From NCBI RefSeq assembly GCF_040436315.1, contig NZ_AP031572.1:2170001-2234000 (forward strand): 64,000 nucleotides of DNA, in the 5' to 3' direction. The notes beneath the pieces were generated by a model that saw only the letters and a list, made by a program, of their open reading frames with translations, did no database searches and had not been told where the DNA came from. This document shows, piece after piece, positions 7,615 through 64,000 of this stretch. Numbering within the stretch: position 1 is the stretch's first letter; each line of letters opens with the position of its first letter. Origin of the DNA: Synechocystis sp. LKSZ1 (GTDB lineage Bacteria > Cyanobacteriota > Cyanobacteriia > Cyanobacteriales > Microcystaceae). Made by a program: the position numbers and the translations under genes.

Positions 7615-7646
7615 ATTTACCGCGCTTCTACGAAAGAAGGGTAAAT
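7615..7646. other. long imperfect hairpin between psbC and the WYL gene
   Basis: ATTTACC (7615-7621) pairs with GGTAAAT (7640-7646), and inside it CTTCT (7625-7629) pairs with AGAAG (7635-7639), with a three-base GCG bulge. There is no U-tract on either side. It lies in the 3' region shared by the convergent psbC and WYL-regulator genes. Confidence 0.45.
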
Positions 7647-7751
7647 TGTCTAGCCAGGAAGATAGACTGCCCATCCGTCTTCCCGGATACGGCGACTGAG
7701 GAAATTAATGTGGTCTCAGTATTAAACATGATGGAGGCTGAGGAGTAGGCG

Positions 7752-34000: not shown

Positions 34001-37000
34001 AGCAGTTGGAAGATTAATGGCTAGTTTACTATTGCCATCTCCATCAATATCTACTCCTGTTGCGGAGGTTACTGCTATCGAAGGAAGATTGCTGGACTGA
34101 GCAAAATTCGGTAATTTTCCACTCTGATTACCAAGGGAAATTAAATTACTTCCACTCGTACTAGCTAACAAGATGTCATCATAACCATCGCCGTTATAAT
34201 CTTGAATGGCAAAAGCCTTGGAAATACCTGCTAGTTGCGACAGAGAATTGGCATCAGGAATCATGGTTAATTGTTTCTGTCCACCCAATTCAATATTTCC
34301 CAATACCAAGTAAAAATTATTGCTATTGTCCAGAATACCAAGGTCTTCTAGTCCATCACCGTTGAAATCCCCAAGACTGATTAAGTCCTGAATAGTGGCA
34401 TTTTGAGCAGTAATGATTAAATCATCCGTGCCACTAGCGGCATCTAATAAATCCTTCGTGCTTTTGCCAAAAATAATCACTCCAATAGCGCTACCACCGG
34501 AAAAGACATCAGCAAATCCATCCCCATTAATGTCACCTAACATTCGCACAATAGTGCCATTACTTGAAATTTCCCCAAGCGGTGGCAGAGAGGAACTCAA
34601 AACCTCCATCCCGGTACTTCCTGTAGAGCGAACGAGATAAAGCTGATTATCTAAAACCGTACTGGCCGGAGTATAGCTGCTGGTTCCTGCTAATTGATTC
34701 GTCGTCCAGCCAATCGCGTTCGTAGAAGTACTGAGAAAAAGTGTTTGATCCGCATCAACAACATTGGTGGTATTGAGCAGATATAAGGCCTGGCTATCAC
34801 TCGTTAGGCTGGGTGTTTGTTCGGTACTTAAGCCTGGTACAGAAGTCAGTGACCACGACAAGTTACTGAGATCCGTCCCCGTCGTATAAGTTACATCAAC
34901 GCCCTGGCTAGGACTACTCTGAGTTCCAGTTTGATAGGCCAGGTAAAGTGTATTGTCTAAAACAGTGGCGCTCACAGCAGTAGGACTGGTTTGATTATCA
35001 GTACCATTGTTGTAGGTGACAGGATAAGCAGTAGACCAGGAATCACTCGATTGAGGATTGTCGGAATAGACATAAAGAATGCGACTACTACTATCTTGGG
35101 CTGTAAAAAAGGTGAATAAATGGTTTTGATAAAAAACCAGGGTTGGGGAATTAGTGGAAGTTTGCCCAGGAATTTGGTACTGAGGACTCCAGTTTTGCCC
35201 TCCATCCGTGCTGTACATAATATTCAGCAACGGGTCTAATCCCAGATAAGCCAGATAAAGCGTGCCTTGCTCATCCACGGCTAAGGAAGGCGAAACATTG
35301 GTGGCCCCATCCGCAAAAATCGGGACGGCTGGACTCCAGGTTTTGCCATTGTCTTGGCTGGTTGTCCAAAAAATCCCTTGATTAGTGCCTTCTCCCTTGA
35401 TGGCCATGTATAACGTTCCTTGATAACTGACCAGGGCCGTGGTTTCATTGGTACCTTGATTGGGAATCGCAGAATTGACAACCTTAAAGGTGCTAAACGC
35501 ATTGCCATCAATGACAAAGCCGTTGTCGGAAGAGACATCCGCCAGCTTAATACTGCCGTCATCTTTTAAATAAGTCTGGCCATAAACGGCATAGGCCTGT
35601 TGGGCATTGGGGGCCGTGATCATTAAATCATCAACATTATCGCCATTAAGATCACCGACACCTACCGCCGCTGTGCCAGCAATCTGGTAAGGCAGACTAC
35701 CATTTAGTAAAAAGGCCTTGTCACTACCCGTAACACTGAGATCAAAGAGATTCCCCGTGCCGTCTAAGGTGAGAGGGCCAAAAAGCAAATAGCTCTGTCC
35801 TGTACCATTACTGGCCTGGGGGGCCGTAATCAAAAAGTCTTGGTGCCCATCACCGTTGATGTCGCCGGGAAAGCTCACGACACTGCCAGCCTTGCTACTG
35901 GGGATGCCGCCATTAATGGTTAAGTTACTGACGGTATTGAGGAATTGCCTATTGGGATTTTGTGTGGCACTACCGCCCTTCAGCACATAGACCGCCCCGG
36001 CATTGGCATTAACCCCTAGGGCAGAGATGGCCAGATCCTTTTGCCCATCGCTATCGATGTCTTCGGAGGCCAAAGCAGATCCCGCTAAATAGTTAGCCGC
36101 AACACCGTTAGCAGCCGGAACATTGGGCCCGGCATAGCTCAAGGTCGGACTAGCAGATAATCCATTAGCACTACCCGCCAAAACATAAACCGCGCCAGCA
36201 GTAATCGGTGTTGCATCGGGAAATAGGCCCTGACTGTCACTGGGGAGTCCTTGCTGGCCCTGCCATTGGTTGTTAACCGAAATAGGATAGCCCGGTGCGC
36301 CAATAATCAAGTCGTCGTAATGATCGTTGCCGGCAAACGTCGTAGCTCCACCGACATAACTGGAAGCCGCCAGGGTATAACCGGCGGCCTCGCCGACCGT
36401 CACGGTTTGACTGGAACCATCGGCCTGTTTCGACGAAATAGGTTGGGTCTGGCCGCTATAGACAGTGTTCGCTGTTATAGGATTCGGTGGAGAACTGGGG
36501 CTGAATCCCTTGATCAAATAAACTTTACCCACCACAATCCCGTCACTATTCTTGGCCTGGGGGGCCCCGAAGGCAACGTCAGCATAGGTATCATTATCAA
36601 AATTACCCACTGTAACGGCGTATCCCGCCGCGCCCTCAGTATCTAAACCATTAAACACAAAGCCCATGTCCGACGGCGTTGTCGTTAAGCTAGCAACATC
36701 AATGATCTTGCCTTTATTAGTACTTAAATAACTGCCATAGATGACGTAGATGGCCCCGTTGCCATTGTTGGCATTGGCATCGCCAATCACTAGATCGGGA
36801 ATGTTTGTGGGATTCCCTGCGATGTATCCTGTGACCAAACTCAGGGCCAGATTATTTTTGGCAGTTCCCGCATCCGCCAGGCCAGTAATGAGAATACCAT
36901 CGGGATTGCCCAATAAATCCGTGGTCGTCAGGATATTTGTCTCCGTACCCTTGAGAGCATTGCCACCGGCGAAGAGAATTTGAACCGTACCATTGTTAAC

Positions 37001-40000
37001 GAGAGTTCCTTGATTATCGGTATAGCCCCGGTTGCCCAGGGCCACGTAGGCCAGGCTCCCATCTGAGTTAAAAGCACTCGTAGCCACCGCCCCAATCGCC
37101 GTGTTGTTGGTATTAATCACAAAGCCGCTATCAATATTGGCCAGGGATGCATCATTGGCCTCGGTGACAGTGGCAATCCCCAGCACTTGAGTGTCTAGAT
37201 AGTCAGTACTATTGGCCGCAACAGGGCCTCCTTGGTTGGGCAGAGCCAGGACGAAGGGGGGGGGAGTTACACTGCTTGCCACACCTTTGTTGTCTTTAAC
37301 GTACACCGTAATAGTGGGAGTACCCGAAAAAGTATTCCCGGTGGTATCAATAAACAAATTCAGGGTCTCGGTTTCCCCCCTAATCTGGTGATTTAAGCCA
37401 GAAAGACTAGCATTACGGCTATTGAGCAGTGTGGCCCCATCAGTAAAGGCCAGTTGACTACTATTGCCCATCGTTTCTCCCAGAATCACCCCGACCTGAT
37501 AGCCTCCGATAGCTGTGCCATCACCTTTCTGACCAACTCCCCAAAGGAGATTCGTATTACTCGATACTGTCACAGCAATGCCTGTAATTTCCTGGCCCTG
37601 GTAGCCCGTTAGGGTAATTTGAAAAATGCTGTCGGCGAGGCCATTGGGGAAAATCGTGGTTCCTCCTGGCGAATTGGTCACAGCCACGATGTCCCAAACT
37701 GGGTAATTGGCATCAGCCAGAATTGTCGGCACCACCTGAGGGATAGGATCAATCTGGCTAGGGGCCTGCCAAGTGCTAGAAGTACTATCCCAAAGACTGT
37801 AGTGAACCTCAGGGCCGGGGGGAACGGGGTCAACGTAGCGAGCTTGGTAATGATTACCAATTTGGTCAACACCCAAGGTGCCATCCACCAGATCATTGCC
37901 GTTGAGGTTCATCGCATCGGCCGCAGTTAAGCCAGAATTGCTGGATTCCGAAGCGGTCAGAATCTGATTATAAAAGGCCACTTCATCGATATAAATTGAT
38001 CCCCCGTTACCGACAATTGATAGTGTGCCAGAACTGATTTGGGGAAAGTTACTAAAACTGATATTGTCTAGACTCTCGACTAACTCACTATTCAGATACA
38101 AGGCAAGACTGTCTTGAGAAGCGTCATAGGTGCCGACGACGTAGTACCAAGTATTAATGTCAAGGGGTTGGGTCGTAATAATAGTTGAACTATCTGTATT
38201 GTTTAAGCTGAACCTTAACTGAGTATCGTTGACAGTAAAGAGAAAAATATCCGCCATAGAAACCACGTTGGGAATGGCGTTGAGACGAGGCAATTTAAAC
38301 CAGAATTCCACCGAAAACCCCTGGGAACTGAGGGGAATGGCCCCATTCAAGGTCAGGCCCCCACCCTCAAACAAAACGGCTGGATTAGGATCTCCCGTAT
38401 TGCCTGACTGCTCTAAGGCCCCCGGTTGATTCAGTTGAAATGAGCCGCTATATTGACCCTCGATCGTCGCAAATTCACCAGAATTGACGGCAGTTGGCCC
38501 TGTTAACTCTCCCAGACGCAAATAAACTTGGGGGTTATCATTTTCTATCAACGTACTATAGGAAGCGGGCTGGCTTTCTGTCCAGAAAATAGCTGGTTGG
38601 CCCTCAACATCCGTGATCCTCAGTTCACTAAAGGCATCGGGGCTTGTTTCCGCTAGCAGGGCCTGGGGAGTTGTCCATTGACTGCCATTCCAGCTTGACC
38701 AGTAAATTGTCGTTGTAGTCTCGCCAGTGCTGTTATCCGATTGGGTATTGAGCCAGGCCGCGATCAGGTCGCCATTGGGTAAGCTACCGAGCGCCACCTT
38801 TTGGTCTTGGCCGGGTTGTAAACTCGCAATGGGGGCCGCTACTGTCCATTGATTACCAGGCCCTAAAACCGAGTAGTAAATATCCGAGTTGGCAAGGGCG
38901 TTATTAATGGTCTGGGCCTGTTCACTAGTATAGTTTTGGCCGGGAATGAGCTGGAGGGGGACATTACGGGTGTCAACATTCACCCAAACGGCCACATTGG
39001 TCTGGGTTGGGCCATGGGTAATCAGAGCCGGGTCAGAATTAAGGCCCGCAACACCAGGAATGGTTGTCAGGGGAGAAACATCATTCTCACCAAAGGGATA
39101 GAAGGTGGTTTTGATGACCGAACTAGAATTGGCGGGGGTGGTCAGAACTTCAAACTTATTGATGGTAAAGGCATCGACCGTTTGGGCATTTTTATCTACC
39201 AAGCTATGGCCAGTAACGGGATTATAGGCAATGGACACCGCATCGCCTTGACCAATCAGTGCTTTCCCCACACTACGATTAGTGAAAGCGCCAATACTTA
39301 AAACTACAGAAAGATCACTCACTGTAACATCAGTAATCGAAGCGGTTTGATTATTAATCATTACCGTAAAATCTTGACCTGAAATGTTAGATTTTTGGGC
39401 TGATAGCAGGCGGTCAAAAGGAACGACTAGAGTCTGGCCTAGGCCATAGGCCTGATAGCTGTTATTACCCAGGGTCAGGTCGAGGAGAGACGGATTGACC
39501 AAATTATCCGAGGCCTGACTAGCGACTAAATTAGCGAAGGGTTGAATCCAGAATTGGGTTTGGGTCGGGTCAGTGAAGTAGAGATTAGTGCTGGGATTAT
39601 TGTTAACTAAGGAATAGCTAACCGTGACTTGATCGATGGAAGTAACCGTTGTTGCCAAGCTTAACGTGACGGTATTATTGGTTATGGCCAGGCCGGTGAC
39701 GGCGATGGATTTACCATTAATTGAGATGCTGAATTGATCAAGACTGGGCAAATTTTCTTGGGTTTGACTATTGCCTAAATCAGCCGAAAAACTGAGATAA
39801 ATTGAATCGTCACTCGCAATGGCAGAAAGGGGCAGAAGATAGGGGGCATCACTACTCCAGGCAATTAAAACTTGGCCTGAGTTGGTCAGGGCCAGGGCCG
39901 GAGGGCCGTCCTGAGCCAGATCATTATTCGTATTCGCGGCGATTTTATTGATAGTTGCTGAACTCCCAAAGGTGCTGTTGACACTACCGGCAGCAGTCGG

Positions 40001-42376
40001 CGGATTCGCACTACTGATGGAGAAAGCCGAGATCGGTTGATTATTGGCCGTTGTTAGAATATCTTCCGTGCCGCTGGGATTGTAGGTAACGGTGTAAATT
40101 TCACCGGCGGGAAGACTGGAAGCTAGGGTTAACACCAGACTTTTGGCGTTAATTTGGATAGCAGAGGAAGCCGGGGATAATTGCAGGGTAGTATTGTTCG
40201 TAGTTGTGATCGTGAAAAAGTCAGGATCAGGAATACTTTGGGGATTTAAGGGTGTGTTAAAGTTAATGGCTATTTGTTGAGCATTATTCTCGTAAAGAGA
40301 TTGAGTTCCCCGTGTCGGATCGTAGGTATAGGTAATATTTTGTGAACTATTATTGGTTACGGTTACATGGGTAAAGTCATTCAGTTGATTGCCGCTATAG
40401 GTTACTGTAATCGGGTTAGGAATAGAGTCACTTAAAGGTTGATCATTGAGGGTTGCATAGGGAATAGCCTGTTCTAATCGCAGAATAATGGTATTGCCTT
40501 GAATAACGACATCAAACACAGGAATAGTGGACTGATTACCTTTTGCATCCTTAACCGTAACCGTGAAATCTGATGGCGTTAGGTTAAGGTTAGAGGCTAG
40601 GTCTGTGGTGAAGTTAATCGTCAGTAAGGTGCCATCAACACTCGCCGTTGGTGATGAAGCTGTAGAGATTGCAGGTAGGACGAAGGACGCTGATTCAGGA
40701 TTCGGGGTTAGGTTCCAGGTAAAAGTTGGAAATCCCGCCCATCTAGTACTAAACAAGCCCCCCAAAGTACTAATTGTTAAATTAAAGGGAAAGCCAAGCG
40801 TGAAGGTATCACCATCTTTATCCTGCAAGTTAATGGTAAAGTCTAGAAATACACCGAGGGAACCCGCTAGTTTTAAAAGGTAGGGAATCGAAATGGTCGT
40901 ATCAACCCCAGCAGTAATAGGAATGCCTAATAAAAGTGATTCTACTTCGAGAGGATCATCTAATTTTTTGGAATCAATCGCGAGGGCAATACTGTCAGCA
41001 ATATCTGCAATAACCGCAACACCAAGAGCCAAGGGGTCAGGAATCGATGTGGCTAAAAAGGCTGTGGTCAGATCTCCAGTAGAACTAAAAACAGGAATAA
41101 GAGGAGGCTCATAACTAGGATTTTTATCGTTAGGAGCGGCTTGCCATTGGAAGGAAATACCCGCATTCCCAAATAGGTTAGCAGTGAAACCTATCTTACC
41201 CAAAGGGCCACTGGTTGGAGCGACTAAGGGATAGGTGAACGTGACGGTTACCCCGAGACTGCCGGTCTCTAGAGCGAGGGGAAACTTGCCAGCACTATCT
41301 GGTTGATTAAAGGTATAGAGTGTCGCCAGTGTAACGGATAAACCTAAATCCTTTTGCAGTGGACCGTCATCGTCACTACGGCCTTTCTTGCTTAGCCGGC
41401 TCTTCGCATCACCTGTTGTATTTAACCCTAGAGTTGCAACGGCATTTAATAACAAATCCCCTGCTGTAGAGGGAAGATTATTTGGACCACCAAACAGACT
41501 CCACTCCGGATTACTTTTAAGCAAAGAGGTCTGGAGTGTCCCCGATAAATTAAACCCTAAGTTATTAAATAAAGCTTTAGTCTTTTTAGGGCCTTCTTCT
41601 TGATTATTTTGTTGATTTTGTTGGTTTTGTTGGTTTGGCTTGAAGAAAGCAAGAAAAGCCTGAAATAATGACAGAGAAAAGTTCTGAGACGTATTACCAT
41701 TCCAATTAGCGGCAATTTTGGTTTTGGCTTCCGATACCGTTAAGACGGAATAGCTGGCCTTCGGGGAATTTATCCTCTGATTGACATACAGAGAGGATGG
41801 TTTAGCGGCCTGGTTGATTAAAGAACTGCTCGCGCCATTACCAGAATTGGAAGGATTACTAAACTGACTGCTGGAAACCGAAAAGGATTGATAGTATAAA
41901 TCAGTATCTTCTCGAACACCCTGATTGCTGGCCTGATCTGTATTCACTTTCTGGCCAACGACCACAACTTCTGTCGTGCCTTGATTGTTGTAGGTAATGG
42001 CCCTGGGCTCTAGATCTGCAACCGCATCGGCTGTCAGGGCCTGGGGCCGATTTAACCATTGCAAGCCGCCGCTGGCATTGTATTGCGCCGCCGTATAGAA
42101 AAAATTGCTCTCATTCTCACTGCCCTGCTGATAAACTACCGCTAGGCCTGGGGCCGGTTGCTCATTTCCTGTGATCAAGGTCTCGCTGGCGAGCAAGTTT
42201 AGACCAGTGACCTTTTGTTGCCCGACCTCAGCGATCACTTGGGCCTCTATCCAAGTCGCGGCATTATCATCGTAGACAGCATGCCAAATTGCTGCATCCT
42301 CGACCCAAACAACGTGGGTAACGCCAGCGGCATCCGTGGTGATAGCAGAAAGATGGTCAGTCAAACTAATGGACAT
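31034..42376 (-). CDS. giant mosaic surface/exported protein (SwmB-like, LamG, FG-GAP, BNR, RTX, Calx-beta, DUF4114)
   Basis: 3780 residues, no stop or frameshift. There is no signal peptide. Modules in order: a beta-rich N-terminal part including a Q/N-rich linker (about 245-262); several SwmB/flagellar-associated-repeat-like beta domains (about 575-1080, e.g. SNLNLTPSDFTVTVKDAKG); a LamG/concanavalin-like domain (about 1310-1475); FG-GAP repeats (about 1835-2270, GDINGDGHQDFLITAPQA); BNR/sialidase-type repeats (about 2325-2590, YSTDGGQNWSP); more FG-GAP (about 2605-3000); a small RTX calcium block (about 3008-3075); a Calx-beta domain (about 3215-3315); and a C-terminal DUF4114 (about 3715-3780, GFEDQVGGGDFDYNDM). 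RTX nonapeptides with no signal peptide point to type I secretion. The role is probably cell-surface adhesion, S-layer or swimming-type structure; the ligand is unknown. It lies directly upstream of kaiA on the same strand, with a 224-base gap. Confidence 0.85.
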   Translation of the reverse strand: MSISLTDHLSAITTDAAGVTHVVWVEDAAIWHAVYDDNAATWIEAQVIAEVGQQKVTGLNLLASETLITGNEQPAPGLAVVYQQGSENESNFFYTAAQYNASGGLQWLNRPQALTADAVADLEPRAITYNNQGTTEVVVVGQKVNTDQASNQGVREDTDLYYQSFSVSSSQFSNPSNSGNGASSSLINQAAKPSSLYVNQRINSPKASYSVLTVSEAKTKIAANWNGNTSQNFSLSLFQAFLAFFKPNQQNQQNQQNNQEEGPKKTKALFNNLGFNLSGTLQTSLLKSNPEWSLFGGPNNLPSTAGDLLLNAVATLGLNTTGDAKSRLSKKGRSDDDGPLQKDLGLSVTLATLYTFNQPDSAGKFPLALETGSLGVTVTFTYPLVAPTSGPLGKIGFTANLFGNAGISFQWQAAPNDKNPSYEPPLIPVFSSTGDLTTAFLATSIPDPLALGVAVIADIADSIALAIDSKKLDDPLEVESLLLGIPITAGVDTTISIPYLLKLAGSLGVFLDFTINLQDKDGDTFTLGFPFNLTISTLGGLFSTRWAGFPTFTWNLTPNPESASFVLPAISTASSPTASVDGTLLTINFTTDLASNLNLTPSDFTVTVKDAKGNQSTIPVFDVVIQGNTIILRLEQAIPYATLNDQPLSDSIPNPITVTYSGNQLNDFTHVTVTNNSSQNITYTYDPTRGTQSLYENNAQQIAINFNTPLNPQSIPDPDFFTITTTNNTTLQLSPASSAIQINAKSLVLTLASSLPAGEIYTVTYNPSGTEDILTTANNQPISAFSISSANPPTAAGSVNSTFGSSATINKIAANTNNDLAQDGPPALALTNSGQVLIAWSSDAPYLLPLSAIASDDSIYLSFSADLGNSQTQENLPSLDQFSISINGKSIAVTGLAITNNTVTLSLATTVTSIDQVTVSYSLVNNNPSTNLYFTDPTQTQFWIQPFANLVASQASDNLVNPSLLDLTLGNNSYQAYGLGQTLVVPFDRLLSAQKSNISGQDFTVMINNQTASITDVTVSDLSVVLSIGAFTNRSVGKALIGQGDAVSIAYNPVTGHSLVDKNAQTVDAFTINKFEVLTTPANSSSVIKTTFYPFGENDVSPLTTIPGVAGLNSDPALITHGPTQTNVAVWVNVDTRNVPLQLIPGQNYTSEQAQTINNALANSDIYYSVLGPGNQWTVAAPIASLQPGQDQKVALGSLPNGDLIAAWLNTQSDNSTGETTTTIYWSSWNGSQWTTPQALLAETSPDAFSELRITDVEGQPAIFWTESQPASYSTLIENDNPQVYLRLGELTGPTAVNSGEFATIEGQYSGSFQLNQPGALEQSGNTGDPNPAVLFEGGGLTLNGAIPLSSQGFSVEFWFKLPRLNAIPNVVSMADIFLFTVNDTQLRFSLNNTDSSTIITTQPLDINTWYYVVGTYDASQDSLALYLNSELVESLDNISFSNFPQISSGTLSIVGNGGSIYIDEVAFYNQILTASESSNSGLTAADAMNLNGNDLVDGTLGVDQIGNHYQARYVDPVPPGPEVHYSLWDSTSSTWQAPSQIDPIPQVVPTILADANYPVWDIVAVTNSPGGTTIFPNGLADSIFQITLTGYQGQEITGIAVTVSSNTNLLWGVGQKGDGTAIGGYQVGVILGETMGNSSQLAFTDGATLLNSRNASLSGLNHQIRGETETLNLFIDTTGNTFSGTPTITVYVKDNKGVASSVTPPPFVLALPNQGGPVAANSTDYLDTQVLGIATVTEANDASLANIDSGFVINTNNTAIGAVATSAFNSDGSLAYVALGNRGYTDNQGTLVNNGTVQILFAGGNALKGTETNILTTTDLLGNPDGILITGLADAGTAKNNLALSLVTGYIAGNPTNIPDLVIGDANANNGNGAIYVIYGSYLSTNKGKIIDVASLTTTPSDMGFVFNGLDTEGAAGYAVTVGNFDNDTYADVAFGAPQAKNSDGIVVGKVYLIKGFSPSSPPNPITANTVYSGQTQPISSKQADGSSQTVTVGEAAGYTLAASSYVGGATTFAGNDHYDDLIIGAPGYPISVNNQWQGQQGLPSDSQGLFPDATPITAGAVYVLAGSANGLSASPTLSYAGPNVPAANGVAANYLAGSALASEDIDSDGQKDLAISALGVNANAGAVYVLKGGSATQNPNRQFLNTVSNLTINGGIPSSKAGSVVSFPGDINGDGHQDFLITAPQASNGTGQSYLLFGPLTLDGTGNLFDLSVTGSDKAFLLNGSLPYQIAGTAAVGVGDLNGDNVDDLMITAPNAQQAYAVYGQTYLKDDGSIKLADVSSDNGFVIDGNAFSTFKVVNSAIPNQGTNETTALVSYQGTLYMAIKGEGTNQGIFWTTSQDNGKTWSPAVPIFADGATNVSPSLAVDEQGTLYLAYLGLDPLLNIMYSTDGGQNWSPQYQIPGQTSTNSPTLVFYQNHLFTFFTAQDSSSRILYVYSDNPQSSDSWSTAYPVTYNNGTDNQTSPTAVSATVLDNTLYLAYQTGTQSSPSQGVDVTYTTGTDLSNLSWSLTSVPGLSTEQTPSLTSDSQALYLLNTTNVVDADQTLFLSTSTNAIGWTTNQLAGTSSYTPASTVLDNQLYLVRSTGSTGMEVLSSSLPPLGEISSNGTIVRMLGDINGDGFADVFSGGSAIGVIIFGKSTKDLLDAASGTDDLIITAQNATIQDLISLGDFNGDGLEDLGILDNSNNFYLVLGNIELGGQKQLTMIPDANSLSQLAGISKAFAIQDYNGDGYDDILLASTSGSNLISLGNQSGKLPNFAQSSNLPSIAVTSATGVDIDGDGNSKLAINLPTATDNNIGGFSLYSYPPSTPTVVELYDFGFADVTADRLNSIGDFNGDGLEDIAILVKSINSSPVISAIYIYYGTPQGLSSRSAPSLVLSTLNWNENYSTPPAQVNEFTNTGDLNGDGYDDLIVGASTTNNNQGATFVVFGGLVGSDIGLGYPFADLTQLEPSQGFTITGLSNSQAGIAVGGGKDINGDGFDDLIIGAPGNNDNLSYVLFGSDFNNTVNQTGTIGDDVMLGTATGESFVAGQGDDQIYTGGGLDVVYAGPGDDWVELKDTYFRRLDGGPGLDVLELHGYNGQAWDLTTLAPGVRLQDFEVIDIRNYGGNTLTLNALTVTNLSSNNTLVILQDEADNLALSTDFQADGTTYQYGEKYYQYTSQSSAAKVLVNQAKPPAHIAPSKNTPATILPSTTANAENTLLESQQTLTNVPNSTVVSDPNAPTQLFISNPIVAEQTGLATFSIQRSGNLNKYSLVSYQTVDEDGKAGGRYLPVAGRLVFAPGETQKSVTVIVPNDGIDTGNRQFGLLVSLSEESLEPPTGPKHLQFQANANGEQMRRWHYEEEPVENSLVGQLTFSTTVANGQAQIDIAADGTGDFNDFFNFNAQTSQYESLLFKNQTGAVFTYANSHLSDTPNGIQLTLQDGGRGDADGVANGLVKTQGYISRTIPGLITENNQTLLAPTTADGQIQFRLIDAPLANYELGWLAVDSTQGQIDGLNPGDSGYLEAARQRLSQPDLRQVLFQDDGSAASQALTSGLAQQSFIDPKALVSSEQQFFGTLANSQLTANQPYVLYALADNQLQLSSLQTPQIVRESRGYQSLFFAGLTAEIGSNALVVPGAWSQTVPLQASLSRAAAYQNLIALYQVDSLTGGLDLDGDTHIDVRPGDSGYTRQALARAQNPLTGVPLNTPDNFNTRQEIINLLGNHIYGMVIIPNATIAEVLTQNPDNLGGEKPLAFFSFGLANPDGLSHMARLGNNLFGFEDQVGGGDFDYNDMILQFQAS

Positions 42377-43453: not shown

Positions 43454-46400
43454 ATGAATATCCAGCAGTTTGATCTCTTTGGCGTTTACAGCTACTTAAC
43501 TCACTTCGCTACCCTGGAGTCCTTCTGGGGCCAGTTTGAAGCTATCTACGGCACGGGCTACGATTTTGCAGCGGCCGAGGCCCTGCGGCTGCAATGGGCC
43601 AACGGGGATTTTAGCCAGTTACCGGCTATCCAAGTTGTTGAAACCGAGTCCCTGGGAACGGCCTCTGGGGCCTATGCCCAGGCCAATAACACCATCTATT
43701 TGTCTGAGAGATTCCTGGCCACGGCTCCAGCCAGTGTGATTACGGCGGTGGTGTTGGAGGAGGTTGGCCATTTTGTCGATGTGCTAGTAAATGAGAGCGA
43801 TTCACCTGGGGATGAGGGGGAATATTTTGCCAACGTAGCGTTAAACCAAGATCTGTCAGAACTGAACTTAAGAAGACTGCAGGCTGAAAATGACTTAATT
43901 TTTATGGTGATTGAAGGACAAAATTTATTAGTAGAACAAGCGAATTTCACAGGAACCAACGGAAATAATACAATTCTAGGAACCGCAGAGGATGACACGA
44001 TCAATCCAGGATTGGGTAATGACAAAGTAGATGGAGGAGCGGGAAATGACTTATTGATAGTGGATTATTCTAGTAATGCCTACAATGGAACCTCACCTAA
44101 CGCAGGCATCAGAAGCTATATCTACAACAATAGTACGTCTGGATTCAATGGTTCTTACAGTGCTTACTATAACTCTGGCTATGATGATGACTATATTAGC
44201 TTCTCTGGCATAGAGCGCTTTCATATTACGGGAACTATAGCGAATGATGACATTGAAACTGGTGATGGAGATGATGTTATCAATAGTGGTGATGGTAACG
44301 ATACCATTAATGCGAATGACGGTAATGATGTGATTAATGCAGGTGATGGAGATGATGTTATTGATAACAACAATGGAATTGATACAATAGATGCTGGTCA
44401 AGGAATAGATCGACTCATCAATGGTAATTTTGGTACGATAACAACGGGACTTAGCTTTGATGAAACGGGAACAACTCATTCCGCCATTTCACTACCCAAT
44501 GGTAGCATCGCTAAAAATATTGAGTATTTTACAAATCTAATAACAGGTAATGGCAATGATGTCATTAACTACAGCCAACGCACTGATAATGATTTAAAAA
44601 CTGGTGGTGGAGACGACACAATTAATCCAGGATTAGGCTATGACAAAGTAGATGGAGGACTGGGCAATGATTTATTAATAGTAAATTATTCTAGTAATAC
44701 TTACAATGGAACCTCACCTAACGCAGGCATCAGAAGCTCTATTTACAACAATAGTACCTCTGGCTTTAATGGTTCTTACAGTGCCGATTATAACTCTGGC
44801 TATGATAATGACTACATTAGCTTCTCTGGCATAGAGCGCTTTCATATTACGGGAACAGTAGCCAATGATGACATTGAAACTGGCGATGGAGATGATGTTA
44901 TCAATAGTGGCGGTGGTAACGATACCATTAATGTGAATGATGGTAATGATATAGTTAATGCAGGCGATGGAGATGATGTTATTGATAACAACAATGGAAT
45001 TGATACGATAGATGCTGGCCAGGGAATAGACCGACTCATCAATGGTAATTTTGGTACGATAACAACGGGACTTAGCTTTGATGAAACGGGAACAACTCAT
45101 TCCGCCATTTCACTACCCAATGGTAGCATCGCTAAAAATATTGAGTATTTTACAAATCTAATAACAGGCAATAGTGATGATGTCATTAACTACAGCCAAC
45201 GCACTGATAATGATTTAAAAACTGGTGGTGGAGACGACACAATTAATCCAGGATTAGGCTATGACAAAGTAGATGGAGGACTGGGCAATGATTTATTAAT
45301 AGTGGATTATTCTAGTAATACTTACAATGGAACCTCCCCTAAAGCAGGCATCAGAAGCTCTATTTACAACAATAGTACGTCTGGATTCAATGGTTCTTAC
45401 AGTGCCGATTATAACTCTGGCTATGATAATGACTACATTAGCTTCTCTGGCATAGAGCGCTTTCATATTACGGGAACAGTAGCCAATGATGACATTGAAA
45501 CTGGTGATGGAGATGATGTTATCAATAGTGGCGGTGGTAACGATACCATTAATGCGAATGACGGTAACGATATAGTTAATGCAGGCGATGGAGATGATGT
45601 TATTGATAATAATAATGGAATTGATACGATAGATGCTGGTCAGGGAATAGACCGACTCATCAATGGTAATTTTGGTACGATAACAACGGGACTTAGCTTT
45701 GATGAAGCTGGAACAACTCATTCCGCCATTTCACTACCCAATGGTAGCATCGCTAAAAATATTGAGTATTTTACAAATCTGATAACAGGTAATGGCAATG
45801 ATGTTATTACCTACAGCCAACGCACTGATAATGATTTAAAAACTGGTGGTGGAGACGACACAATTAATCCAGGATTAGGCTATGACAAAGTAGATGGAGG
45901 ACTGGGCAATGATTTATTAATAGTGGATTATTCTAGTAATACCTACAATGGAACCTCCCCTAAAGCAGGCATCAGAAGCTCTATTTACAACAATAGTACG
46001 TCTGGATTCAATGGTTCTTACAGTGCCGATTATAACTCTGGCTATGATAATGACTACATTAGCTTCTCTGGCATAGAGCGCTTTCATATTACGGGAACAG
46101 TAGCCAATGATGACATTGAAACTGGTGATGGAGATGATGTTATCAATGGTGGCGGTGGTAAAGATTCTCTTTATGGAAATAATGGCAATGATTCTTACAT
46201 TCTGAATGTCAATAATGCTGCGGGTAGCGTAATCTATGATTCAATAGGCAACGACAGATTAACGTTAAATGGTACTCAGATTTCCCTAGTTAAAGCTGAA
46301 GTAGGTAAAGTGGGTTTAGGTCGTTTAAATCAGACATTAATTATCGATCTAAATCAAGATGGTATTTTAGATGCCAATACCGATCTTAGTATTGAAAAAT

Positions 46401-47416
46401 TTTATAACGATCCATTTTCCAGTACGCCAGGTAGTGGATTTTTGGAAACAGTTGATAATCTATCGGGATTGGATATAATCCAAACAATCGTGCAAAATAA
46501 TTTTCCTAGCCTCAGCATTCAAGATTCGGCTATTTGGGAAGGAAACAGCGGCACTAAAAATTTAACTTTCACTGTTACTCTTTCTCCGGCCAGTCTTCAG
46601 CCTGTAACCGTTAAGTTTGCAACATCTACCCCAAGCGGCCATACCGCAACCTCGAATGTGGATTTCACGGCTACCAATGGCACTCTTACCATTCCTGCAG
46701 GCCAACTGACCGGCCAGATTAATGTGCCGATTATTGGCGATACTACCAACGAGAATAGCGAAACCTTTGTGGTCAATCTGAGTAATGCCAGCAATGCTGT
46801 TATCCAAAAATCTCAAGCCATTGGCACGATTGAACAGGATGATACCCCGACCAGTCCCCTGGTGTTGACGGGAGGTACTGTCCAGATTGCCTACGTGGCC
46901 TACTACGGCCGGCCGGGTGATCCCGGTGGTCTAGCCTTTTGGAATCAAGTCTTTGGTTCTCAGCCGGTGGTCTTTGGAAGTCCTGAGTTTGAAACCCTAG
47001 CCAATAACTTTGGGACGGGCAGTGAGGCCAACCGTCTCTATGGGGCTTTGAGTAATCGCGACAAGGTCAAAAAAGTCTATAACTTGGCCTTTAATCGAGA
47101 TCCAGAGCAAGGCGGTTGGGACTTCTGGACAGGCCTGTTGGATCAAAACAAAGTCACGCCAGTCAATTTTGCTTTGGCCGTGGCCCTGGGGGCCAGTAAT
47201 GGAGAAGAGCCCGATCTCACTATTCTTCGCAATAAGGTAGCCAGTGCTGATTTAATTAGCAAGGCCATTGATACGCCTCTAGAACGCCAGGCGACTTCTG
47301 GCCCCAGCAATGAGGTCTTTGGTCGCAATTGGTTGGCCCCCTTTGGCGATACCAGTGCTTCCCTCTACGCCGCTGAAACGGCCCTGGCTCAGTTTGTAGC
47401 CAGTGCAGGCTTCTAG
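43454..47416 (+). CDS. RTX-type calcium-binding exported protein with 207-residue tandem repeats, Calx-beta and DUF4214
   Basis: 1320 residues, no signal peptide. The N-terminal domain (about 1-160) contains VVLEEVGHFVDVLVN and DSPGDEGEYFANVAL, which looks like a degenerate zincin: a glutamate and histidine are kept but the first histidine of HExxH is replaced. Residues about 183-902 are 3.5 near-identical 207-residue units, each with an unusual serine/asparagine/tyrosine-rich segment (YNGTSPNAGIRSYIYNN) and RTX nonapeptides (GDGDDVI). A Calx-beta domain (about 1016-1130) and a C-terminal DUF4214 domain (about 1143-1283, QIAYVAYYGRPGDPGGLAFW) follow. RTX repeats plus DUF4214 point to type I secretion and a surface location. 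The repeat block is less G+C-rich than either end. It could be an adhesin, S-layer-associated protein or modified protease; I cannot choose. Confidence 0.85.
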   Translation: MNIQQFDLFGVYSYLTHFATLESFWGQFEAIYGTGYDFAAAEALRLQWANGDFSQLPAIQVVETESLGTASGAYAQANNTIYLSERFLATAPASVITAVVLEEVGHFVDVLVNESDSPGDEGEYFANVALNQDLSELNLRRLQAENDLIFMVIEGQNLLVEQANFTGTNGNNTILGTAEDDTINPGLGNDKVDGGAGNDLLIVDYSSNAYNGTSPNAGIRSYIYNNSTSGFNGSYSAYYNSGYDDDYISFSGIERFHITGTIANDDIETGDGDDVINSGDGNDTINANDGNDVINAGDGDDVIDNNNGIDTIDAGQGIDRLINGNFGTITTGLSFDETGTTHSAISLPNGSIAKNIEYFTNLITGNGNDVINYSQRTDNDLKTGGGDDTINPGLGYDKVDGGLGNDLLIVNYSSNTYNGTSPNAGIRSSIYNNSTSGFNGSYSADYNSGYDNDYISFSGIERFHITGTVANDDIETGDGDDVINSGGGNDTINVNDGNDIVNAGDGDDVIDNNNGIDTIDAGQGIDRLINGNFGTITTGLSFDETGTTHSAISLPNGSIAKNIEYFTNLITGNSDDVINYSQRTDNDLKTGGGDDTINPGLGYDKVDGGLGNDLLIVDYSSNTYNGTSPKAGIRSSIYNNSTSGFNGSYSADYNSGYDNDYISFSGIERFHITGTVANDDIETGDGDDVINSGGGNDTINANDGNDIVNAGDGDDVIDNNNGIDTIDAGQGIDRLINGNFGTITTGLSFDEAGTTHSAISLPNGSIAKNIEYFTNLITGNGNDVITYSQRTDNDLKTGGGDDTINPGLGYDKVDGGLGNDLLIVDYSSNTYNGTSPKAGIRSSIYNNSTSGFNGSYSADYNSGYDNDYISFSGIERFHITGTVANDDIETGDGDDVINGGGGKDSLYGNNGNDSYILNVNNAAGSVIYDSIGNDRLTLNGTQISLVKAEVGKVGLGRLNQTLIIDLNQDGILDANTDLSIEKFYNDPFSSTPGSGFLETVDNLSGLDIIQTIVQNNFPSLSIQDSAIWEGNSGTKNLTFTVTLSPASLQPVTVKFATSTPSGHTATSNVDFTATNGTLTIPAGQLTGQINVPIIGDTTNENSETFVVNLSNASNAVIQKSQAIGTIEQDDTPTSPLVLTGGTVQIAYVAYYGRPGDPGGLAFWNQVFGSQPVVFGSPEFETLANNFGTGSEANRLYGALSNRDKVKKVYNLAFNRDPEQGGWDFWTGLLDQNKVTPVNFALAVALGASNGEEPDLTILRNKVASADLISKAIDTPLERQATSGPSNEVFGRNWLAPFGDTSASLYAAETALAQFVASAGF
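44000..46160 (+). repeat. 621-bp in-frame tandem repeat, about 3.5 copies
   Basis: Unit starts, marked by AT(C/T)AATCCAGGATT, are at 44000, 44621, 45242 and 45863, spaced exactly 621 bases (207 codons). The fourth copy stops matching at about 46160. Units two to four differ at only a few positions, while unit one is slightly more diverged, which indicates recent unequal duplication. Confidence 0.95.
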
Positions 47417-57512: not shown

Positions 57513-60500
57513 CTACGGGGCCAGGAGCGTCTCGATCAGGGCCAGTAGTTCCTTTAACTTAACGGGTTTGCTGATGTATTCGTTGGCCCCTGCGGCTAAA
57601 CAGCGTTCCCGGTCTCCCTCCATGGCCAGGGCCGTGAGGGCAATAATCGGTGTCTGGGTCAGGTCAGGGTTGGCCCGAATCCGTTGGATGGCTTCTAGAC
57701 CACTAATGCGGGGCATTTGAATATCCATCAAAATCAAGTCGGGATGATGGGCCTCTGCCAGCGCAAGGGCTTCCTCACCATCCTTAGCGGAGAGCAGACG
57801 GTATCCCTTGACTTGTAGATAGCCGACCATCGTCAATGCATTAGCGGCATTATCCTCAGCCAATAGCAGGAGGGGGGGAGTGTCCCGCGCAGTCAAGGGA
57901 ATTGTTTTATCCGCGACGGCTTCTGGCTGTCGTTCCGAAGGTAGTGATACGCAGGGCAGGTCAATACTAAAGCAACTCCCCACCCCCACTTCGCTAGTTA
58001 AGCTCACCTGACCACCGTGGAGCTCGACCAAACGCTTGACCAGGGCCAGGCCTAAGCCAGTGCCTTCATATTGGCGATTCAGGTCGCTATCCACTTGTAT
58101 GAAGGGTTGAAACAACTTTTGAATGTCCTGATCGCTAATACCAATGCCCGTATCCTTCACAGCAATCCGCACAAAATCCGTCAAGGGGGGAGGCTCCGTT
58201 TGCAAAAAACGCTCCACGCTTTCTTGGGGTTGGCGATAAATACGGACACGGGTAATTCCCTCTTCCGTCGTGGTGGTTAGCGGCTGGGGAATATAACTAA
58301 CGGCTAGGGTTACGGTGCCCCCTGGGGGCGTAAACTTGACAGCATTATTCAACAGATTGATCAGTACCTGCCGAATCCGACGCTCATCCACCCACAGATC
58401 GGGCAGTCGGGCCGGGAACTGAGTCTCTAACTGAATTCCTTTTTGTGAGGCATGATGCTTGATAAAGTCCAGGCTCGATTGACACAGGGGAATCACTGGC
58501 GTCACAACCTGATCGAGCACCAGATGGCCGGCCTCAATCTTAGCTAGATCAAGAATATCGTTAATCAAAGACAGTAGATGACTGCCACTGCGCTCAATAG
58601 TAACGATGGCCTTACGTTGTTCTGGGGTTATGGCCCCAAAGATTTCCTCCTGTAGTCCTTCGGCCATGCCCAGAATGGCATTGAGGGGTGTTCGTAGTTC
58701 ATGGCTGGTATTGGCTAAAAATTCATCCTTGAGACGATTGGCTCGGGTTAATTCCTCGTTAGCCTGAGCCAACTGCTGGTTCCGTTCGTCGATCAGTTTT
58801 TGGGCCTGTTGCCGTTCCTGCAATTCCTGTTGTAACTGCTGAAAGAGGTCGGCCTGCTGAATGGCAATGGCCAATTGGTTAGACAGGTGCTGGCAAAAGT
58901 CGATTTCCTCCAGTTGCCACTGACGCGTTCGATGACACTGGTGCAGACAGAGCAGACCCCACAGTTGGCCCCCACAGAGGAGGGGCATCACCAAATTGGC
59001 CCGAACCTGAATTAAGGATAGGACATTAGTATGGCATTCCTCCAAATCATAGATATTTTCCATGGCGGCGTACCGCCCTTGTTGATAAAGGGGAGCGAAC
59101 TTATCCCCAAAGCAATGGTCATGGATATGAATACCCACCACGGATAAAATTCCCTCACCAAAGGACTCTGCAACAAATTCTCCGTCATCACAGCCCGAAT
59201 CGGGATAGAACTTAAAGATGCCCACCCGGTCCACCCCCATCACCACCCGAATTTCCTGGCAAGCGGTATCAAAGATCCTTTGCAAATCCAGGGATTGGCG
59301 AATGCGCTGGCTGATCTCCGCCAATAGAGTTGCCCGTTCCGCTCGTTGACGGCGGATGTCTTCTTCCTCAATCCACTCCGTAATATCCCGAGCAATGGCA
59401 AACATTTTATCCTCGCTAATTACCGTTCGCCATTCAAGCCAACGATAGGAGCCGTCCTGACAGCGATAGCGATTGGTGAAGTCAGGAATTGCTCGGTGAA
59501 CCATCAGTTCAGCGGCAATATCTTTGGTTTTTTGCCAGTCATCAGGGTGGACGTAATCCATGAAGTAGGCCCCCTCCAGTTCCGCCACCTCGTAGCCTAA
59601 AACCTCCGTCCATTGCTGGTTAACCCGTACAATTCGGCCATCTAAGGTGCCGATATACATCAGGTCAAGAGACAGGGAAAAGAAACGATTTAATTCCTCG
59701 GATTTGGCTTGGAAGGCCAACTCAGCCGCTTTCCGGGTTGTTAAGTCGAGTACGGTGCCAACGATTTGTACAACTTTTCCCGTTGCGTCTGTCAGGGGCT
59801 CTCCCCGAGCCAGGCAATAGCCGAGACTCCCGTCGGTTCGATAAAAACGGCATTCTATCTCGTAGGGCCTGGCCTGGCTAATGGCATTCTGTACCACTTG
59901 CGCATGGAGACTACGATCCTCTGGATGTAGAAGGGTTTGGAGTTCCTCAAAAGTCGGGGCTCCCAGGGCCTGGGGCCGGCCAAAAAGTCGGAAAATTTCC
60001 TCTGACCAAATACTCTCGCCCGTTGCCACATCAAACTCATAACTCCCCACTTGGGCAATACGTTGAGCCGTTCTGAGGTTGGCTTCCCGTTTGCGGAGTT
60101 GAATTTCTGCCCGTTTCTGCTCGGTGATATCGGTGAGCAGGGACATGGAACCCATAAATTGTCCTTGATCATCTAAAACAGGGCTAGCAGAAGCCAGGAC
60201 GAGAAGGGCCCTGCCATCGGGCCGACGGAGGGGGAGTTCATAGTGCTCACTGATCCCTTGCCGACGCCAAGCAAGATGCTGTTCCACGAAGGCCTGATCC
60301 TTATCCGCGACAAATTCAAACAAAGACCGCCCCGGCATGTCCTCAACACGGGTTCCCAGCATCGCCGCCAGAGCCGGATTACAAAACAGGGTTTTCGCGT
60401 CGGCATCAATCACCCAAATCCCTTCCAGGGCCGTTTCAAAAACTTGTCGATATTTGGCTTCACTGCGACGCAGGGCCAACTCGATGGTTTTACGTTCACT

Positions 60501-61694
60501 AATATCCCGAAAAATGCCTTGAATTAGGGTATGGTTCTGTACTTCAATCACTGAAGCGGTAATATCAACAGGCACTAACTCCCCATTCCGACAGAGAAAA
60601 TTAACGTCATGTACCTGGGAACGTCTTTGCTCGGCCAAGTCCTCAAAGGCCTGGATCACTTTCGGCACATCCTCAGGGTGATGGAGTTGGCTAAAATGCA
60701 TCCCCATTAATTCTGTCCGTGGGTAGCCGAGAAGCATTTCTGCCTTACGATTGACTTCTAAAATATAGCCTTGCTGATTGGCCAGAATGATGGCATCCCC
60801 AGCCCCTTCCATTAGGGCCTGGTAGCGAATTTTTTGGGCTTCTAGCTCTTCCGTTCGCTGGATCACCCGAGTTTCTAACTCTGTATTTAATCGTTGTAAT
60901 TCCAGTTCCGCTTCCGTCAGTTGGGTAATGTCCTGCACCGTTCCCTGACAAAAATAAGGAACACCCTCCTCGGTGTAGAGGGTTTCGCACTGCTCCTGGA
61001 GGTACTTAATGCGACCATCGGGCATCAGCAAACGATGCACAATGTCGTAGGGAAGGCCATTATCGAGGTGTTGCGTAAAGGCTTCGTTGACCCGTTCTCG
61101 ATCCTCTGGATGCACAAGGTCTAAGAACGCTTCGTAGGAAACCTCGAATTGCTCTGGATCTAACTCAAAGATCCGAAAGACTTCCTCCGACCAATAGGCC
61201 TGATGGCTTTGCAAGTCCATCTCCCAACTGCCAACGTGGGCGATTCGTTGGCTATCCCGTAACCGTTGGGCCGAAAGGGTGTTAGCCGTGCTGTCTGGGT
61301 TCAGGGCCTGGAGAAGATTATCCCGTGTGATCAGGCCCAGGAGATGGCCCTGCTCATCCAGGAGGGGGAGGCTCGGACAGCAATTTTGTTGAAATTTGCG
61401 AATGAGACGGAGGGGGTCATTTAATTCCCAGGGCCGCAGACTGGCCTGGAGGGGATGCAAGACCTCTGCTACAGTGACCGTTGCCAGGGCCTGATTTTGC
61501 ACCAGGGCCTCCACAATATCGCGCTCGGCTAACATGCCAACAATTTTTTCTTCGGCTATAACCAGCAAACAGCCGCAACGGGAGCCCAAGGGCCAACGTC
61601 CCAATTCTGTAATCACAGCCTGGAGGGTCATAGCCGGCGAGATCGTGACCGGATTGCGAATAATACTCGACTCAATGGCCTGGGGCGTGAGCAT
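57513..61694 (-). CDS. CBS-PAS-GAF hybrid histidine kinase with a cyanobacteriochrome-type GAF domain
   Basis: 1393 residues, no membrane segment. Order: two CBS motifs (about 10-130, adenosyl-ligand sensing); five PAS domains (about 145-265, 285-405, 415-530, 538-655, 663-780); a GAF domain (about 795-960); HisKA with phospho-accepting H998 in SHELRTPLN; HATPase with NAVKFTPPGG, DTGIGISDQD and GTGLGLAL; and a C-terminal receiver with phospho-accepting D1324 in LILMDIQMPR. The GAF has D859-H-C861-F and C887-H888 in ECHTNVLSLIQVRANLVMPLL, the two cysteine motifs of DXCF cyanobacteriochromes, so it probably binds phycocyanobilin/phycoviolobilin through C887 and forms a second link at C861. It is thus likely a light-sensing kinase. 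The CBS pair adds possible energy-state input. Output target unknown. It is 116 bases downstream of ftrV on the same strand. Confidence 0.85.
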   Translation of the reverse strand: MLTPQAIESSIIRNPVTISPAMTLQAVITELGRWPLGSRCGCLLVIAEEKIVGMLAERDIVEALVQNQALATVTVAEVLHPLQASLRPWELNDPLRLIRKFQQNCCPSLPLLDEQGHLLGLITRDNLLQALNPDSTANTLSAQRLRDSQRIAHVGSWEMDLQSHQAYWSEEVFRIFELDPEQFEVSYEAFLDLVHPEDRERVNEAFTQHLDNGLPYDIVHRLLMPDGRIKYLQEQCETLYTEEGVPYFCQGTVQDITQLTEAELELQRLNTELETRVIQRTEELEAQKIRYQALMEGAGDAIILANQQGYILEVNRKAEMLLGYPRTELMGMHFSQLHHPEDVPKVIQAFEDLAEQRRSQVHDVNFLCRNGELVPVDITASVIEVQNHTLIQGIFRDISERKTIELALRRSEAKYRQVFETALEGIWVIDADAKTLFCNPALAAMLGTRVEDMPGRSLFEFVADKDQAFVEQHLAWRRQGISEHYELPLRRPDGRALLVLASASPVLDDQGQFMGSMSLLTDITEQKRAEIQLRKREANLRTAQRIAQVGSYEFDVATGESIWSEEIFRLFGRPQALGAPTFEELQTLLHPEDRSLHAQVVQNAISQARPYEIECRFYRTDGSLGYCLARGEPLTDATGKVVQIVGTVLDLTTRKAAELAFQAKSEELNRFFSLSLDLMYIGTLDGRIVRVNQQWTEVLGYEVAELEGAYFMDYVHPDDWQKTKDIAAELMVHRAIPDFTNRYRCQDGSYRWLEWRTVISEDKMFAIARDITEWIEEEDIRRQRAERATLLAEISQRIRQSLDLQRIFDTACQEIRVVMGVDRVGIFKFYPDSGCDDGEFVAESFGEGILSVVGIHIHDHCFGDKFAPLYQQGRYAAMENIYDLEECHTNVLSLIQVRANLVMPLLCGGQLWGLLCLHQCHRTRQWQLEEIDFCQHLSNQLAIAIQQADLFQQLQQELQERQQAQKLIDERNQQLAQANEELTRANRLKDEFLANTSHELRTPLNAILGMAEGLQEEIFGAITPEQRKAIVTIERSGSHLLSLINDILDLAKIEAGHLVLDQVVTPVIPLCQSSLDFIKHHASQKGIQLETQFPARLPDLWVDERRIRQVLINLLNNAVKFTPPGGTVTLAVSYIPQPLTTTTEEGITRVRIYRQPQESVERFLQTEPPPLTDFVRIAVKDTGIGISDQDIQKLFQPFIQVDSDLNRQYEGTGLGLALVKRLVELHGGQVSLTSEVGVGSCFSIDLPCVSLPSERQPEAVADKTIPLTARDTPPLLLLAEDNAANALTMVGYLQVKGYRLLSAKDGEEALALAEAHHPDLILMDIQMPRISGLEAIQRIRANPDLTQTPIIALTALAMEGDRERCLAAGANEYISKPVKLKELLALIETLLAP

Positions 61695-62650: not shown

Positions 62651-63097
62651 CCTTCATATCCATCGTCTCTAGGCTGCCTAAGCAATGCTCCCCACATAAT
62701 GGCTGTCGAGCCGGAAAGACGGCCCTCTTGCTGGAGATGATAGCTTGGGTATCTGGATACACTTTCCCTTCGTTTTCGTTGACGGTAGTCTAGGCGATGG
62801 GCAATTAATCGCCGATTCCTATAGTTCTCTTTCCTTATACTAGGTGAAAGATGTCGATATATATCCATTGAGTTTTATCTCGAATATACTCATTTAGCTT
62901 TATTTAAAAGTAGCAAGACCCCATCATTTCTTCTTGGAACTCCCTTTTTCCAAGATTTCCTATGGCTAGGGGAAAGTTTTGACATGAATTTTCATTGATT
63001 TGAACTACAATAGGGGAGTCTTAAGGTATGAAGCTGGTTCGGTGCTGGTAACTTCCTAGCCCTATTCACTGGCTATAGGCCTGATTTAGGTGTGGTA
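62651..63097. other. 447 bases without a supported gene, upstream of the final kinase-like gene
   Basis: A minus-strand frame of 73 codons (62647-62868, arginine-rich) has no ribosome site and no family I know. The right half is A+T-rich and should carry the promoter of the plus-strand gene at 63098. TTGACA (62979-62984) and TACAAT (63006-63011) occur, but 21 bases apart, too far for a standard promoter. Confidence 0.4.
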
Positions 63098-64000
63098 ATG
63101 TCTCCAGAGAATACTGCGTTTCAGTTTTCGTCCGATTACATCCTGGCCTGTCCGCTAGATCAATTGTCTCCCGGCGCGCGAGAAACCAAACGCTTTGAGG
63201 CGATCCAGTCCCTGGGTTTGCTTGGTCAAGTTACCCTTCCCTGCTTTGACGAAGCCCTTCAGATTGTCTCTCAGGTTCTGCGCTTTCCCCTGGGGCAAGT
63301 TACCCTCCTGGTTCACGAACAAGCTTGGGTTAAGGCAGCCGTGGGTTTATCTATCCTGAATTTTTCCCATCCCTTGGCCCGCCAACAGCCATTACCCCGC
63401 CAGGATACCTTGGCTTCCTTGGTCGCCGATAGTCAGGCCCCGGTCTATTCGCCAAATCTGGCCACTGATCCGCTCTTTTGTCCGAGTGTTTTTCACCAAT
63501 ACTTGGGAATTCAGGCTTATATCGGTGTTCCCCTAATCACCCATAGTGGTCAGTGTATTGGCTGTTTAGAGGTGTTGGATCTTGTTCCTCACCCCTTCCT
63601 CGGCCACGAATTGGCCCTGATGAGTGTGACGGCCCGCTGGTGTATGGCGGAAATTGAGCGGGTAGCCTTGCCCAATACGCTTGTCACCAACGCCAGTCCA
63701 TCGCCCGTAACTGAAAAAACTGAATTTCTGGCCCCGCTGAAATTACAACTCCTTTACCAACTCATTCAGCAAACTCAGCCAGCTTTAACGGCAGTGATTG
63801 GTATGTCTCGGGTTCTTGCCAATGAGGTTTTTGGGCAACTCAATACGAAGCAACAGGAATATCTTGAAATTATTAACCATAGTGGCAAAACGATTCATAC
63901 CCTGATGGCAGAAATTCTCAGTTTAGAGGCCCCCGTCACCGCCTCATCCCACCGGCAGATTAGCCTAGTGGACGTGGGGATGCTTGCCCAACAGGTGATC
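63098..64000 (+). CDS. GAF-domain histidine-kinase-like protein lacking the phospho-accepting histidine (3' end outside window)
   Basis: Open frame of 301 codons from an ATG at 63098 to the window end; a GTG at 63092 is also in frame. Residues about 34-185 form a GAF domain: RETKRFEAIQSLGLLGQ, SLVADSQAPVYSPNLATDP and YLGIQAYIGVPLITHSGQCI are the pattern of GAF domains that bind small molecules or work as redox/light input modules. No Cys-His bilin motif is seen. From about residue 215 a HisKA-like dimerisation helix follows, LTAVIGMSRVLANEVFGQL then QQEYLEIINHSGKTIHTLMAEI. Aligned with the kinase at 57513-61694, the phospho-accepting histidine position is Q224 and the HELRTP block reads QQTQPA. 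If the ATPase domain beyond the edge is intact, it may be a pseudokinase or a partner kinase. Confidence 0.75.
   Translation, partial: MSPENTAFQFSSDYILACPLDQLSPGARETKRFEAIQSLGLLGQVTLPCFDEALQIVSQVLRFPLGQVTLLVHEQAWVKAAVGLSILNFSHPLARQQPLPRQDTLASLVADSQAPVYSPNLATDPLFCPSVFHQYLGIQAYIGVPLITHSGQCIGCLEVLDLVPHPFLGHELALMSVTARWCMAEIERVALPNTLVTNASPSPVTEKTEFLAPLKLQLLYQLIQQTQPALTAVIGMSRVLANEVFGQLNTKQQEYLEIINHSGKTIHTLMAEILSLEAPVTASSHRQISLVDVGMLAQQVI

Follow-up and report, generated by a model that had tools for sequence, protein, structure and literature searches.

The reverse strand of a 64,000-nucleotide stretch of Synechocystis sp. LKSZ1 DNA (NCBI RefSeq assembly GCF_040436315.1, contig NZ_AP031572.1, positions 2,170,001 to 2,234,000; the window) encodes, at 57513 to 61694, a protein of 1393 amino acids which, judged from its sequence and from structure prediction, is very probably a hybrid histidine kinase of the DXCF cyanobacteriochrome (CBCR) class. 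On the same grounds it is probably a functioning light-controlled kinase of a familiar kind. What is unusual is a small, conserved structural variation within this known kind of protein, i.e. a shortened loop ahead of the bilin-binding cysteine. The genome already has many GAF domains of this type, and the window kinase is a probable two-colour sensor kinase to add to them. The features of the gene are as follows.

57513 to 61694, minus strand: open reading frame of the hybrid histidine kinase, 1393 amino acids, ATG start
61275 to 61694, minus strand: N-terminal segment with the CBS pair, residues 1-140 (Pfam CBS, two stretches, E 7.8e-14)
60936 to 61199, minus strand: PAS 1, residues 166-253 (PAS_3, E 2.9e-21)
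60495 to 60797, minus strand: PAS 2, residues 300-400 (PAS_9, E 8.5e-17)
60120 to 60425, minus strand: PAS 3, residues 424-525 (PAS_9, E 5.1e-16)
59751 to 60008, minus strand: PAS 4, residues 563-648 (PAS_3, E 5.4e-16)
59409 to 59630, minus strand: PAS 5, residues 689-762 (PAS_3, E 5.9e-15)
58860 to 59288, minus strand: CBCR-type GAF, residues 803-945 (Pfam GAF, E 4.2e-21)
59109 to 59120, minus strand: DHCF motif, D859-F862, with the second cysteine C861, aligned to TePixJ D492-F495
59037 to 59051, minus strand: shortened loop YDLEE before the cysteine, residues 882-886, lacking two residues (the alignment places the gap at TePixJ A517 and G518)
59031 to 59036, minus strand: bilin cysteine C887 and H888, aligned to TePixJ C522 and H523
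58527 to 58730, minus strand: HisKA, residues 989-1056, phosphoacceptor H998 (Pfam and motif)
57954 to 58388, minus strand: HATPase_c, residues 1103-1247, with DTGIGI and GTGLGL boxes (Pfam and motif)
57534 to 57866, minus strand: receiver domain (Response_reg), residues 1277-1387, phosphoacceptor D1324 (Pfam and motif)

The GAF domain carries the two cysteines that mark the DXCF class. D859 is encoded at 59118-59120, the second cysteine C861 at 59112-59114, the canonical cysteine C887 at 59034-59036 and H888 at 59031-59033; both cysteines are encoded by TGC and are 26 residues apart, exactly as a preliminary description of the sequence had placed them. That description had also assigned the GAF to the DXCF type, subject to alignment with TePixJ, and the case that it had named as fatal, motifs lying outside the CBCR positions, did not arise. 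When 288 GAFs and TePixJ were aligned, D859, C861, F862, R874, C887, H888 and N900 fell on TePixJ D492, C494, F495, R507, C522, H523 and N535, respectively. Among the best 60 of 83 PDB chains matched at E 0.001, the closest sequences were CBCRs (6oap at 1.8e-38, 6bhn and 8k9o), and TePixJ 3vv4 was found at 8.6e-24. The AlphaFold2 model of the domain, built from an alignment of 14 sequences, has the CBCR GAF fold (pLDDT 90.3, pTM 0.84), and the best 50 of 395 Foldseek matches to it (E <= 0.001), 6ob8, 3w2z and 4fof included, were CBCRs, phytochromes or fluorescent proteins derived from them. The domain thus combines a CBCR fold and sequence and the canonical Cys-His with a second cysteine in D-x-C-F at the position of TePixJ C494, as the DXCF class does; its spacing of 26 differs from the 28 usual in that class, and spacing is no part of the published definition in the portions of the literature available. 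The window GAF reads IHDHCF where WXDXXL would stand in red/green (XRG) CBCRs, and a Pfam scan of the kinase at E 0.01 gave no PHY domain, so that the PAS-GAF-PHY module of canonical phytochromes is absent.

Pfam was searched with the full-length protein and with segments of it. Five separate PAS segments each passed a Pfam cut-off, and the CBS pair, the five PAS domains and the C-terminal receiver are indeed joined in one kinase, as had been proposed. HisKA, HATPase_c and receiver domains are all present with a phosphoacceptor histidine and aspartate, which makes the protein a hybrid histidine kinase. The motifs SHELRTP (H998), LINLLNNAVKF, DTGIGI, GTGLGL, LILMDIQMP (D1324) and YISKPV were found, which we take to be the H-box, N-box, G-boxes and the D and K motifs of the receiver. 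For the adenylate and redox inputs suggested in the preliminary description there was no positive evidence; NCRFL is the flavin cysteine motif of LOV blue-light sensors, and N[CR]R[FY]L occurs nowhere in the protein. Nor is the fusion of domains special, since the CBS-PAS-GAF-kinase-receiver layout recurs in three of the five relatives scanned, i.e. at locus L172 of the same genome and at L175 and L059 (Nodosilinea nodulosa).

We consider it rather likely that the protein as a whole acts as a DXCF-type CBCR hybrid kinase with a thiol photoswitch and a phosphorelay. The bilin of TePixJ is attached at C3-1 to the canonical cysteine and, in the blue state, at C10 to the DXCF cysteine (PMC11284453, PMC6955287), and DXCF proteins typically switch between blue and green (PMC11284453). 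Phycocyanobilin would similarly be taken up by the window GAF and bonded through its A ring at C887, and some or all of it would probably be turned to phycoviolobilin. In the shorter-wavelength state the bilin would be bonded at C861 as well, through a bridge at C10. Light would flip the D ring and the C861 bond would be made or broken, giving a violet, blue or teal state and a green or yellow state. The signal would travel through the helix that follows the GAF, reach H998 and then D1324, and go on by phosphorelay to a distinct regulator, perhaps a REC-GGDEF-EAL enzyme of cyclic di-GMP (c-di-GMP) metabolism like the neighbour of several related kinases, while the CBS and PAS domains may set or gate the kinase activity. 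The bilin should be present in the cell because the genome encodes two heme oxygenases and one ferredoxin-dependent bilin reductase (Fe_bilin_red family, 3e-78), which we infer to be PcyA.

The loop was compared among homologous GAFs collected from 350 loci. With tblastn at 1e-20 these gave 374 pieces, of which five partial ones were dropped and none contained stops; removal of duplicates left 288 distinct GAFs, the window GAF included, and 289 with TePixJ. These GAFs were chosen for their similarity to the window GAF, not at random, so the tallies are to be read as counts rather than frequencies. Cysteine was found at both positions in 199 of the 289, which rules out chance for the cysteine pair, and at the canonical position only in 79. 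The cysteines were 28 residues apart in 186 of the 199 two-cysteine GAFs, including TePixJ. The preliminary description had called the context of the window GAF typical, but the spacing of 26 is rare, which had gone unnoticed; its interpretation overall is partly supported. From a conserved isoleucine to the canonical cysteine there are 6 or 7 residues in seven of the 289 GAFs, whatever their cysteines, and 8 or more in the others. The seven are the window GAF and those of L179, L191 and L195, with a spacing of 26, and those of L178, L181 and L183, with a spacing of 27; the GAF of L043 is also spaced 27, but by a gap elsewhere. They are spread over the family-level groups f1, f34, f44, f45 and f47, and the six relatives, which come from the four groups other than that of the window, match the window GAF at 63-74% identity and have GRY-x-AM in common ahead of the loop. 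In a first comparison only the window GAF was two residues short, and decay of a single copy was considered; this was rejected because the wider sample gave six relatives with a loop one or two residues shorter.

If the GAF were a relict, devoid of bilin and kept only as a dimer or relay domain, this would also account for a loop altered beside the attachment cysteine, and cysteines are lost in some homologues (second only in 4 of 289, neither in 7). We regard this as unlikely, as both cysteines and the residues at D859, R874 and H888 are conserved in the six short-loop relatives, and the bilin genes are present in the genome. Among close homologues, those of L267, L309 and L265 lack the canonical cysteine and have YH or DR instead, and that of L265 additionally has AHG where DHC stands; these are possible natural variants.

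A tree was built from 125 of 192 GAFs and three PDB chains (128 rows), with the loop columns left out; in it the short-loop seven lie on one side of one branch with an SH-aLRT support of 31. A single origin of the short loop is allowed by this value, though not established, and is thus possible and weakly supported. No more members were found among the loci retrieved with a profile of the seven from three families (63, 38 and 36 genomes), where each search took up to 30 loci rather than every match and many of the genomes were already in the class sample. That sample comprised 388 genomes with eight first-look candidates scored in each, so that short-loop members may have been missed, and its GAFs came from 30 loci and 60 further places. 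On this basis 116 of the 388 genomes had a match at 1e-50 or better.

The strand leading into the loop runs to residue 99 of the domain in the window GAF model, a three-residue helical turn occupies 102-104, and the helix begins at 107 with the cysteine at 108. The GAF of L059 served as a control modelled likewise; its strand runs to 96 and its helix begins at 106, with the cysteine at 107. Both models are bilin-free and were compared by secondary structure, not by distances; they suggest that the position of the cysteine in the helix is kept and that the loop is two residues shorter in the window GAF.

Two features of the GAF weigh against the proposed mode of action. Ahead of the canonical cysteine, TePixJ has two more loop residues and the solved CBCR chains compared (n=5) likewise have a longer loop, so the bilin could sit differently in the window GAF. 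Also, Q526 of TePixJ, which has a part in bilin movement (PMC6955287), is replaced by V891. It is possible, if unlikely, that C887 binds bilin and the domain photoconverts, with the short loop shifting C887 or the bilin such that C861 serves only the conversion of phycocyanobilin to phycoviolobilin, or nothing, and no reversible bond to C10 is formed. The colours would then be green and teal or yellow and teal, without a large blue shift. The spacing of 26 instead of 28 agrees with this, as does the model, in which the stretch from the strand to the cysteine helix is two residues short and the cysteine is still second in the helix. Green/teal CBCRs without reversible cysteine ligation are known (PMC11284453), and DpxA is a teal/yellow CBCR (PMC4937213). 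On the other side, all seven short-loop GAFs have kept both cysteines; this is not a strong point, as about 69% of the sample (199/289) has both. The reversible C10 bond at C861 is still the reading that we prefer. The rare short loop together with both cysteines offers a natural test of how far two thiol attachment points can move with the DXCF photocycle intact.

The possible output of the kinase was approached through the neighbours of its relatives, by a scan of 97 loci of >=5.5 kb and the window for REC-GGDEF-EAL genes at 1e-60; many of these loci are not cyanobacterial. Such a gene lies directly downstream of the short-loop kinase in L346, L347 and L348 (3 of 6 short-loop loci), as called by Pfam in the first two and by 72% identity in L348. 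The same kind of gene directly follows the kinases of L059 and L061, and is also present in L062 (63-73% identity); the kinase of L061 matches the window kinase from residue 951 onward only and may lack this GAF. Weaker matches came from L072 (46%) and from L175 (34%, with the gene immediately ahead of the kinase), and matches of 32-40% in L083, L104 and the window open reading frame at 16433-19723 (plus strand), a 1096-aa PAS-GAF-PAS-GGDEF-EAL protein. In a run of signalling genes at L362 (G000:C1:3355500-3371000, 3415-9033) a 354-aa REC-led protein directly precedes a CBS-led 1510-aa GAF kinase, the gene order seen beside the short-loop kinases in L347 and L348.

Counting against a c-di-GMP output, no REC-GGDEF-EAL gene was found within the stretches retrieved for L345, L349 and L350, and the best match in the window genome, a 65% identical protein of 574 aa (90307-92013) that is a homologue by one-way match, is encoded about 2.1 Mb from the window kinase along the contig. 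There it lies beside another hybrid kinase, following an 845-aa GAF-PAS-PAS-kinase-receiver gene. Because the gene adjoins only some relatives and is unlinked in the window genome, c-di-GMP output of the window kinase is possible, and a guess. The chance is a little short of even that the light sensor works and its output lies elsewhere, with phosphate passed to another Hpt protein or regulator, or with the receiver acting as a phosphate sink. No REC-GGDEF-EAL gene stands beside the kinase in the window and the genome has many further receiver matches, which agree with such an output, whereas the repeated adjacency of REC-GGDEF-EAL genes to the kinase in relatives speaks for c-di-GMP. CBCR control of c-di-GMP is found in Cph2 and SesA, where the GAF is fused to the enzyme (PMC5812497); the window kinase would act through a phosphorelay instead.

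The short-loop relatives (L345, L346, L347, L348, L349 and L350) resemble the window kinase in DHCF, CH and a spacing of 26 or 27, and differ from it in varying numbers of PAS and GAF domains. Histidine kinase and receiver domains were found by Pfam in all except L348, whose C-terminal part lay outside the scan. CBS domains are present in L345, L347, L348 and L349 and absent from L350, while L346 runs off the contig at its 5' end. Counting the window protein, five of the six short-loop proteins that are complete have CBS. As an exclusive marker of the short loop CBS was ruled out, as it also leads the standard-loop proteins of L172, L175 and L059 and is missing in L350. It is doubtful that these kinases form a separate DXCF subclass, mostly CBS-led, with the A-ring attachment shifted relative to the C10 thiol, spectral or redox-gated switching of its own and c-di-GMP coupling through REC-GGDEF-EAL; if they did, the shortening by one or two residues would give the subclass its own switching behaviour. 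In the open-licence literature, which leaves most subscription journals outside its scope, no title or abstract opening was found that names this type of protein or the shortened loop.

The window genome contains 27 GAF matches; read by eye, C-H accompanies D-x-C-F in 10 of 26 aligned rows and E-T-C-F in one more. No copy of the window GAF was found on the plasmids at 1e-30. The paralogue at L172:3412-8433 (1673 aa) has the same CBS-PAS-GAF(DHCF, CH)-kinase-receiver order and is 49% identical to the window kinase over residues 6-541 and 57-60% in the GAF; unlike the window kinase it has more GAF domains and a spacing of 28. Three kinase genes in the 14.5 kb of L172 (G000:C1:2526000-2540500) match the window kinase: one is truncated where the stretch begins, and the other two, of 1673 and 1875 aa, lie next to each other. 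In the four genus-mates searched no GAF was as close as this paralogue (best 56% vs 60%). Of the flank genes queried in the retrieved stretches of three genus-mates, the gene at 63092 aside, only the DUF3370-type gene was found, which has no bearing on gain or loss of the kinase.

Adjoining the window kinase, at 63092-64000 (plus strand) and on into L173 to 1547, lies the gene of a GAF and kinase-like protein of 484 aa. By eye this protein reads QQTQPALTAVIG at the SHELRTP position of HisKA proteins and therefore probably lacks the phosphoacceptor histidine. Elsewhere in the window are a giant repeat protein of 3780 aa (31034-42376, minus strand) with FG-GAP, SWM, Calx-beta, Laminin_G_3 and DUF4114, perhaps at the surface or secreted, and near it a 1320-aa protein (43454-47416, plus strand) with RTX calcium-binding repeats, Calx-beta and DUF4214. 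A scan for promoters and terminators was uninformative, with 4 promoter and 9 terminator sites where 6.0 and 6.6 would be expected.

Of the known systems, the TePixJ GAF (DXCF CBCR; PDB 3vv4, 4glq, 6pru) is like the window GAF in its aligned D-x-C-F and C-H, in the kept equivalents of D492, R507, H523 and N535 and in its fold. The two differ in the Cys-Cys spacing (28 vs 26) and at Q526 (V891), and TePixJ is annotated as a methyl-accepting chemotaxis protein while the window protein is a kinase. The GAF part of a 'Dual sensor histidine kinase', PDB 6oap, is the closest solved sequence among the chains compared and comes from a histidine kinase too, but it has DQYF instead of DHCF, thus no second cysteine, and a loop of normal length, TAGLTECH. 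DpxA, which we take to be of the DXCF class, is likened to the window kinase here independently of any comparison of sequence or architecture. It is a CBCR for which kinase activity has been measured (PMC4937213).

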